Shown here: positions 57,640-60,570 of the stretch, piece by piece
Layout of the letters: every line of letters starts with the position of its first letter
Numbering within the stretch: position 1 is the stretch's first letter
Source of the DNA: Desulfovibrio fairfieldensis
Lineage (GTDB): Bacteria > Desulfobacterota > Desulfovibrionia > Desulfovibrionales > Desulfovibrionaceae
Assembly (NCBI RefSeq): GCF_001553605.1
Contig: NZ_CP014229.1
Span: forward strand, 2,322,501-2,386,500
DNA length: 64,000 bases
Reading direction: 5' to 3'
Made by a program: the position numbers and the translations under genes
The notes under the pieces: generated by a model
The model's database searches: none
Told to the model about the DNA's origin: nothing
Seen by the model: the letters and a program-made list of their open reading frames with translations, nothing else

Positions 57640-60042
57640 CTAGAACTCATAGCGGAAGGTGCCGAACACGCCGTGCGCCGTGCTGTGGGCTCCTGCCTGC
57701 ACATTGTAGTTCACGCCGAAGCTGACGTTGTCGTTGCCGAATTCCAGACCGGCCTGACCCATGTAGGAGATATAATCCATGGTCTGGGTATCCAGTTCCG
57801 CCGTGCCGTTCACGCCGGTGAAGCGCACGTCGCTGCGGGCCTTGATGTCCCCGGACGCCGGAATCACGGCCAGATCCAGGCAGGGCTTGACGTGCCAGCC
57901 GTTGCCCGTGGCAATCTGCTTGGAGAAGGCCACGCCCACCGGGAAGGTCCAGATGTTCTGACTGATGCCGTCGCCCTTGAGCAGCGTGCCGCCGCTCTTT
58001 ACGTCGTATTCGTCGGTGTTCAGGCTCATGTAGCGCACGCCCACATGCGGGATGATGTCCAGATACTGGGTTTCCAGCTTGTACTCGCCGCGCAGGCCCG
58101 CGCTGATGGCATAGGCCGTCACGTCGCTCTTGAGCTTGCCCATCCGCATCCCGGCGGGCAGATCCTGCTCCAGCTTGTTGTAGGTGGAGGTGTAGTTCAC
58201 GTCGGCGGTCACGCCGAAGTTGTTCTGTGCCCAGCCCAGATACGCGCCCAGGCCCCAGAAGTTCATATTGTTGGTGGTTTCGTTGAAGTCGCCGGAGCCA
58301 GTGGCATAGCCGCCGCCGATATTGAAGGTGATGCCCGCGCGGATGGCGTTGTCAAAGGTATAGTCAGCGCCGATGGCCACGCCGCCCAGGCCGCCGCTGT
58401 AGTCCAGATTAAAGCCGCCGCCTTCCAGACCCCAGCCGTTGGAGCTCTGGTACAGGGGCATGATCCACATGGCGAAGCCGGTCTTGGAAGCGTCACCGGC
58501 GGAAGCGCCGGACACGGAACCGTCCATAGCCATGCTCTGTATGGCGTTGCCTCCGGGCTGGGCCAGGCTGGTACGCTGGGTCACGGCATTGCCCGCCGCG
58601 TTGCTGGCCGCCATGGTCATCTGCGGCACCGCGCCGACAAGCGCCATGCGCGCCGCGCTTTCAATGGTCACGGCGGCCTGCTTGGCGTCCGTGATATAAT
58701 TATTGTCCGTAGCGCGCGATAGGAAGCGGCGGCCGCGTTCGGCCGCAAAATAGTCGTTGCGCCCGGCCGCGTACATGCCCACGGCCAGTCTGCCCAGCTC
58801 GCCGTCCAGCGTGGGCAGCGCCTCGGCGGCGGATTTGGCCCGGGTCGTGACCTCGCCGGTGATGGCATCAAAGCTGAAACCGAGGAATGACGTGCTGCTG
58901 AGCAGATTATCGCCGCTCCAGCCATCCTGGTTGCCCGTCTGGGTGACGGTAACGCCCTTCGTGACGGTGTACTGTTGATTCGCTTTGGCCCCGCTGATGC
59001 GCAGTTTCGCGCCGTCATTCACAGTGACGCTGCCGTTGCCCTGAATCACGCCCGTGCCGTCCCCGGCGGACCGGGCGCTGACGTTAAACAGGGAGCCGGA
59101 ATTGAAGGTCAGCGCGTAACTTGCTGTGGTAGTGATTTTTCCGCTGTCCGCCACGGCCAGGGTTCCGCCGTCATTGACGGCCATGGTCGAATTTTGGGCC
59201 AGAACCAGCTTGCCCGCATTGGTCACAGTGCCGCCGTTCTGGGTCAGTTTCGCGGCATCCGTGCCGTTGCCCAGCGTGAGATTGCCCGCTTCCGCGATGT
59301 TCAGCGCGCCGCCCGCCATATTCACATTATCGCCGGTTGTGATGAGGCCGTAGCCGGTAACGTTGATGACGGCATTGCCTTCAATGCTGTTGGCTCCCAT
59401 GCCGCCGAACTGAATATGCGCGGCCTTGCCGTTGCTGCCGTTCATGGTGACTGTGCCGCCTTTGAACTGCGCGCCGATGACGGAACCGCCGAACAACTGG
59501 CTGTTGTCGTTCATCACGATGGCACCGTCGTTGACGATCATGCCCTTATAGCCGCCGATGTAGGCCGAGGCGGCCGTATCGCTCTTGCCGGTCAACGTCA
59601 GCGTGCCGCCATTGATGGTGACGGTATTGGCGTCAACGGTGGCGAGCCCCTGACTGCCGTCGATGTTCAGCGAACCGCTTTCCATCCTGAAGTCCATGCC
59701 CTGGAAAACGGGGTTTCCCGAATACACGTAATGGGTCAGGCGTCCGCCATCGCTGATGGTCAGCGACCCGCCGCGAATAATAACCTTTTTCGCCTCAAGG
59801 TATTGCGCATTCTGTCCCCCGACGTCGGTCGGCGACGTCTTATGGTTCGTAGCTGTGTAGGTTTCAGGGCCGCTGATGACCACTTCGTCATCGTTCCAGT
59901 TCGCAGCAGCCGCCAGGCCCGCGCCGCCCGGAACCAGCGCCCCGACGACGGCCAGAGAGCCGAAGACGTTGAGCAGGCCGCATTTTTTGAGTACCGCCCG
60001 ATACTTATTGACAAGATTCCCGATAGCGCCCTTCGTAAGCAT
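57640..60042 (-). CDS. Autotransporter (type Va secretion) surface protein
   Basis: 800 residues. An extended signal peptide (about 1-46; MLTKGAIGNLVNKYRAVLKK..., then hydrophobic LLNVFGSLAVVGALV). The passenger to about residue 470 is a Gly/Asn/Thr-rich beta-helix with repeats such as VTINGGTLTLTG, GAIVMNDNS and GGTLAVADSG, low in cysteine. From about 525 on is the beta-barrel (FAMWIMPLYQSSNGWGLEGGG...), ending with FRYEF, the terminal Phe needed for outer-membrane insertion. SD GGGAGG. Probably an adhesin-like surface protein, with variable expression suspected from the upstream repeats. Confidence 0.92.
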   Translation of the reverse strand: MLTKGAIGNLVNKYRAVLKKCGLLNVFGSLAVVGALVPGGAGLAAAANWNDDEVVISGPETYTATNHKTSPTDVGGQNAQYLEAKKVIIRGGSLTISDGGRLTHYVYSGNPVFQGMDFRMESGSLNIDGSQGLATVDANTVTINGGTLTLTGKSDTAASAYIGGYKGMIVNDGAIVMNDNSQLFGGSVIGAQFKGGTVTMNGSNGKAAHIQFGGMGANSIEGNAVINVTGYGLITTGDNVNMAGGALNIAEAGNLTLGNGTDAAKLTQNGGTVTNAGKLVLAQNSTMAVNDGGTLAVADSGKITTTASYALTFNSGSLFNVSARSAGDGTGVIQGNGSVTVNDGAKLRISGAKANQQYTVTKGVTVTQTGNQDGWSGDNLLSSTSFLGFSFDAITGEVTTRAKSAAEALPTLDGELGRLAVGMYAAGRNDYFAAERGRRFLSRATDNNYITDAKQAAVTIESAARMALVGAVPQMTMAASNAAGNAVTQRTSLAQPGGNAIQSMAMDGSVSGASAGDASKTGFAMWIMPLYQSSNGWGLEGGGFNLDYSGGLGGVAIGADYTFDNAIRAGITFNIGGGYATGSGDFNETTNNMNFWGLGAYLGWAQNNFGVTADVNYTSTYNKLEQDLPAGMRMGKLKSDVTAYAISAGLRGEYKLETQYLDIIPHVGVRYMSLNTDEYDVKSGGTLLKGDGISQNIWTFPVGVAFSKQIATGNGWHVKPCLDLAVIPASGDIKARSDVRFTGVNGTAELDTQTMDYISYMGQAGLEFGNDNVSFGVNYNVQAGAHSTAHGVFGTFRYEF

Positions 60043-60432
60043 AACATACCTCCCAGGAGCCTCCGCTCCTCAAAAATTCCTACGGAGCCCAATGCTCCCT
60101 TCCTTCGCCGACAGATGGACTGTCGGTTTCCGGCTGGGCTTCGAGAATTTGCGGGAGAGCTATCTTGATGGAATAATGAATATTTTTTTAAAGTAAAAAA
60201 CTGTGAAATTTTTATTAGCAATATGATATTGCAAATTTAAGCTGCTGGAAGTATCATCATCTAAATATTCATTGACAGTCCATCTGTTGATGAACTGTAG
60301 ACATATCGCCTGAGTATGCGTACAGACAGTCCAGCCATCAGCCGGAAATGCAGTCAACCAACTCATTTTTCTTGTTTTTTACGTCCGAAGTGACGCCCCC
60401 GGGCGGATTCCTTTCGCTCCTGCGGCCTGAAA
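60043..60432. other. AT-rich region upstream of the autotransporter, with interrupted inverted repeats
   Basis: A 24-nt sequence at 60263-60286 (AAATATTCATT and GACAGTCCATCTG) has its reverse complement upstream in two pieces: 60112-60124 (CAGATGGACTGTC) and 60175-60185 (AATGAATATTT), split by a 50-nt insertion. The enclosed segment (60186-60262) is very AT-rich, with a GCAATAT-G-ATATTGC palindrome, and looks promoter-like in both orientations. No gene is present. Confidence 0.65.
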
Positions 60433-60570
60433 ATTGACAAACCCTCGTCACAAAAAACGAGGGTTTGTCAATGGTCTGATCCCGCTTGACGACACAAAAA
60501 TCAGTCGCTGTACGGCACGACAAAGCCGTGACCTGCTCCTGATTTTTGGTCGCGTTGACCTTGTCAACGC
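60433..60570 (+). other. Three successive hairpins upstream of lolC/E
   Basis: A perfect 16-bp stem with 8-nt loop (60433-60448 with 60457-60472), both arms carrying TTGACA; a 9-bp AAAAATCAG/CTGATTTTT stem enclosing an inner ACGGC/GCCGT hairpin (60496-60547), with T5 before GG; and GCGTTGAC/GTCAACGC (60552-60570). No coding frame is credible. Possibly a small RNA with terminator or a leader of the lol operon. Confidence 0.5.

Follow-up and report, generated by a model that had tools for sequence, protein, structure and literature searches.

The 64,000-nt stretch of DNA analysed here (the window) carries, on its minus strand, a gene for a surface autotransporter preceded by a short AT-rich segment that lies between two inverted sites. 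The features of this locus, in window coordinates, are the following.

57640–60042, minus strand: gene for an autotransporter of 800 aa (Pfam PF03797, E 1.1e-31), predicted to be the gene controlled
60110–60124, plus strand: site L, putative recombination site on the autotransporter side, GACAG-ATGGA-CTGTC, core at 60115–60119; exact inverted pair
60124–60274, no strand: predicted invertible segment, AT-rich, kept in three sister modules; relatives show both orientations
60175–60185, plus strand: internal repeat of 11 nt (AATGAATATTT), repeating the arm next to site R; second arm piece of an earlier annotation
60179–60207, minus strand: weaker promoter-like match TTCACA-N17-AATATT, toward the autotransporter, from the consensus scan only
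60229–60257, plus strand: predicted promoter TTGCAA-N17-TATCAT, away from the autotransporter (OFF), expected start near 60264; conserved position and consensus scan
60274–60288, minus strand: site R, putative recombination site and partner of site L, GACAG-TCCAT-CTGTT in plus-strand letters, core at 60279–60283

As a first-pass annotation of this DNA had described, the reverse complement of 60263–60286 (AAATATTCATTGACAGTCCATCTG) is found in two pieces, 60112–60124 (CAGATGGACTGTC) and 60175–60185 (AATGAATATTT), with a gap of 50 nt. That annotation tentatively explained the gap by a 50-nt insertion in one arm, an explanation that we discard: the real pair is 60110–60124 with 60274–60288, and the 11-nt piece at 60175–60185 lies outside the recombination site and is separate from 60112–60124. 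It is a weaker repeat, matching at 9 of 11 positions in three sister modules. Within the real pair, ACAG-ATGGA-CTGT at 60111–60123 has its inverted partner at 60275–60287, 151 nt apart, and both sites are palindromes of 13–15 nt in opposite orientation with a common 5-nt core. Between this element and the downstream FtsX/MacB-type permease gene, positions 60433–60472 form a perfect 16-bp hairpin with an 8-nt loop, which is not a standard terminator because no T-run follows it.

Region 60043–60432 matches three further places of the same 3,699,310-base contig at 76–82% identity, and each of the four module copies precedes an autotransporter gene. An autotransporter-domain search of the genome returned four strong matches, exactly the four module-linked genes, along with one weak match below the cut-off. 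At up to one mismatch, the site ACAGATGNACTGTC is found eight times in 3.70 Mb, always as part of one of four inverted pairs, while the control gave 0 matches; this eight-site, four-pair pattern is far beyond chance. The pairs are spaced by ~150 nt at the four loci and their variable base (G, T, T and C) is the same within each locus, the cores reading ATGGA at the window locus, ATGTA at two loci and ATGCA at the locus next to a recombinase gene. The module is complete and present in three more copies, at odds with the first-pass suggestion that it might be the scar of a switch. Searching 79 genomes of the genus at the DNA level with the module as query yielded only one other near-full-length match; the site pattern is far more sensitive than such a whole-module search. 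The two sister switches that have the core ATGTA in common (L005:5710–5885 and L006:5618–5793) lie 234 kb apart in opposite orientation, and recombination between them could therefore invert that stretch of the chromosome.

In most elements of this type, the inner segment holds a conserved TTGCCA-N17-TATTGA, with 17 nt between the end of its −10 box and one of the sites. Promoters were called by consensus match and conservation, and the one at 60229–60257 was also recovered by an independent consensus scan. All four modules of the genome lie in one orientation, with the promoter pointing away from the autotransporter. As in an inverton, the promoter inside the segment would drive the flanking gene in one orientation. 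An initial reading of the locus as a short inverted repeat around an AT-rich promoter segment before a surface autotransporter is supported. The main uncertainty in the OFF call comes from the promoter-like match at 60207–60179, which faces the autotransporter in the present orientation, so that the call may be wrong. The inner segment has a second conserved motif, roughly TAAC..TGAAATAAT, to which an accessory protein such as IHF might bind.

The window itself holds no recombinase gene, as noted at first pass; the gene for one of the matching family lies beside a sister module ~1.9 Mb away. This tyrosine recombinase gene (genome positions 484163–485122; 320 aa in the shorter reading, 349 aa as open frame) ends 112 nt from the fourth module. 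Its product has Phage_integrase and SAM-like domains, is similar to solved XerA, XerD and integrase proteins, and carries the catalytic motif HDLRH, aligned with the His of the solved recombinases. In the IntDes tyrosine recombinases of Desulfovibrio, of unknown function, a Tyr replaces the first His of the catalytic pentad (PMC8138268); these enzymes belong to the same bacterial group, whereas the candidate keeps this His, which rules out its membership in the IntDes subgroup. Other tyrosine recombinases are present in the genome, but the nearest is just 34% identical to the candidate, the sole member of its family, so that the four switches have their best candidate enzyme in the product of 484163–485122. 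A putative cognate recombinase is encoded beside the fourth module, as it is beside many elements of relatives. A serine-invertase switch of the Hin/Mpi type was ruled out, since the genome gave no match to the serine resolvase/invertase family (PF00239), for which the control was positive in 10 of 14. On its other side the recombinase gene is flanked by phage structural genes: at L007:6161–10832 it sits between the switch and genes for phage tail and internal-virion proteins. The enzyme could be descended from a phage integrase, or a prophage could have integrated next to its gene. Among viral contigs there was neither a relative of the recombinase nor a match to the module-specific pattern.

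The absence of a recombinase gene next to the window module and the single orientation of the four modules could also be read as the signs of a former switch that is now locked, with the sites as relics and a promoter that no longer flips in this strain. We consider this improbable, given that the genome encodes a recombinase of the right family with its frame open and that both sites are intact around a locus-specific core (ATGGA, compared with ATGTA and ATGCA in the sister modules), a paired change that is unlikely under neglect.

Same-family recombinases of other Desulfovibrionaceae have, shortly past their 3' end, two inverted GACAG-N5-CTGTC sites with ~150 nt of AT-rich DNA between them. 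We searched 288 genomes of the family with the pattern ACAG-N5-CTGT, 128–158 nt, ACAG-N5-CTGT, leaving the core free. By hand counts from the resulting table, this search recovered 49 elements in 21 genomes, with up to 10 per genome; six further matches had unmatched cores and did not resemble the elements in sequence, the same number as the reversed-pattern control gave. A match to the recombinase family lies beside 27 of the 50 elements fetched with flanks, a share that is biased because some loci were found via the recombinase, and its 3' end is toward the element every time.

The cores vary between elements, yet they are identical within the pair in 48 of the 49 elements of the core-free search, which is the unbiased figure. 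In the set of 50 elements, gathered with up to one core mismatch allowed, 49 pairs matched, compared with a mean of 2.8 and a maximum of 11 among shuffled partners, and a single difference was found among 250 core positions. The sole mismatched element (L134:5273–5448, AAGCA versus AAACA) is in ON orientation before a polyketide synthase gene. For the 38 elements that have both flanks, within-pair identity is 100% at each of the five core positions, as opposed to 56, 46, 36, 46 and 90% between loci, and is at background a few nt beyond the site. Tyrosine recombinases need identity at the centre of their palindromic site for strand exchange, and inverted repeats with an identical crossover core, as found here, are a trait of invertons. 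The GACAG-N5-CTGTC dyad, in two copies at fixed spacing, would also suit a dimeric regulator whose operators flank the promoter and repress it by looping. Such operators need neither an asymmetric centre, variable between loci, nor its matching within the pair, and the element co-occurs with a recombinase rather than with one regulator, which leaves this explanation with a very small probability.

Orientation was assigned with a leave-one-out promoter profile at fixed position, chosen because general sigma70 scoring of each end misjudged a few elements. Most elements of the family have the promoter away from the neighboring gene, and eight have it toward that gene. Among recombinase-anchored elements, the promoter points toward the recombinase in 22, an OFF state for the far-side gene, and is clearly reversed in L053, L097 and L098; L101, L119, L134, L136 and L138 are ON as judged by the side of their cargo. 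The profile gave no clear direction for L096 (recombinase-anchored), L123, L135, L137 and L140, and the cargo side is uncertain in L109, L112, L115 and L141, where promoter direction is clear. Homologous glycosyltransferase genes are found in both states (L101 ON and L120 OFF, 58% identical), and so are homologous polyketide synthase genes (L134 ON and L104 OFF, 59% identical); L136 ON and L063 OFF, with 46% identity over 138 residues, make a weaker case. All these orientations were taken from consensus assemblies, and the two orientations are those of homologous elements in different genomes, a further trait of invertons. Homologous cargo in both states indicates past inversion of the segment between its sites within the family. 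In the ON elements L101, L119 and L098, all in other genomes, the adjacent recombinase is absent or frame-broken, which speaks against the model of a recombinase-driven switch; at L098:5232–6058 it matches in two frames, which suggests that the gene is frameshifted and its switch possibly locked.

Both sites are palindromic around their 5-nt centres, and these centres are complementary to each other, so that the core pairing could in principle arise without DNA inversion, from leader-RNA hairpins whose 5-nt loops pair as kissing loops. RNA pairing would, however, allow G-U changes, at odds with the one difference in 250 core positions, and a promoter located between the sites implies a transcript containing just one of them. 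The segments also occur in both orientations, the neighboring gene encodes a DNA recombinase, and a search of Rfam over the element gave no family match, only two sub-threshold microRNA matches, which fall elsewhere, at the 60433–60472 hairpin. We thus hold out scarcely any chance for paired RNA loops, and this and the regulator-operator reading were both rejected.

Collectively, these data make it highly probable that 60110–60288 is an invertible promoter, that is, a phase-variation switch, served by one recombinase in trans and sequenced in the OFF state; the switch is real and probably working. Two inverted sites with the same 5-nt crossover core flank a segment holding a predicted sigma70-type promoter, and the recombinase encoded at 484163–485122 would bind the arms, exchange strands in the core and invert the segment. 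As sequenced, the predicted promoter faces away from the autotransporter (OFF); once flipped, transcription would start near 60134, ~90 nt before the start codon, and proceed through site L into the autotransporter gene (ON). We propose that this one enzyme serves the four autotransporter switches in trans. Recombination between most of these loci would be disfavored by their different cores (ATGGA, ATGTA twice and ATGCA), which would largely limit exchange to partners at the same locus. Whether this extends to the whole family seems to us an even bet: one recombinase could serve several loci, with the 5-nt core as a locus address that allows flips within a locus, keeps different loci from rearranging with one another and, when switches duplicate, changes on the two sides together.

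The best-known cases of promoter inversion are those of Bacteroides, Escherichia coli and Clostridioides difficile. At the E. coli fimS switch, a tyrosine recombinase (FimB or FimE) flips the promoter before a gene for a surface structure; fimS is one locus with two dedicated recombinases, whereas here one recombinase gene is set against four loci. In C. difficile, several separate switches of surface and motility genes (flg, cwpV and others) depend on RecV to invert (PMC7446863), which resembles our case in that one site-specific recombinase serves several surface-gene switches, a requirement proven for RecV and proposed here. The present switches differ from those of RecV in phylum, in their common arms around a 5-nt core particular to each locus, and in the conserved promoter within the segment. 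Invertible promoters of Bacteroidales adjoin an invertase (PMC8748976), and their tyrosine-type invertase genes are oriented so that the switch promoter does not drive them (PMC11892184). The arrangement is alike here, a promoter between short inverted repeats with an undriven tyrosine-type invertase beside it, and the Bacteroidales cargo comprises surface and glycan genes; sites, phylum and promoter consensus are different (−33 TTTG and −7 TANNTTTGY versus TTGCCA-N17-TATTGA here). In the open full-text literature searched, no paper links Desulfovibrio with 'inverton', and only two broad gut-microbiota articles join Desulfovibrio, 'invertible promoter' and 'phase variation'.

Beyond autotransporters, the cargo of the family includes a chemoreceptor, flagellin, glycosyltransferases, polyketide synthases and a DegT-type aminotransferase; most of these functions concern the cell surface or secondary metabolites, in keeping with phase variation. 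If our interpretation is right, autotransporters, flagellin, chemoreceptor, glycosyltransferases and polyketide synthases are randomly switched in these bacteria, and a reference genome displays one state only. The family-wide spread, a recombinase likely acting in trans and the locus-specific cores are what sets these switches apart, and the fifty elements with their 30 distinct cores are a natural data set on the use of overlap sequences by tyrosine recombinases. In one draft genome (G031, L103–L112), seven of ten elements are no more than 700 nt from a contig end, compared with ~6% expected for each; mixed orientations would fit this placement, as would repeats at which the assembly broke. 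In many relatives (L046, L101, L116 and L118), the sequence GATTTTTT follows the site palindrome of the promoter-distal end; it resembles an intrinsic terminator and would be upstream of the promoter in either orientation.
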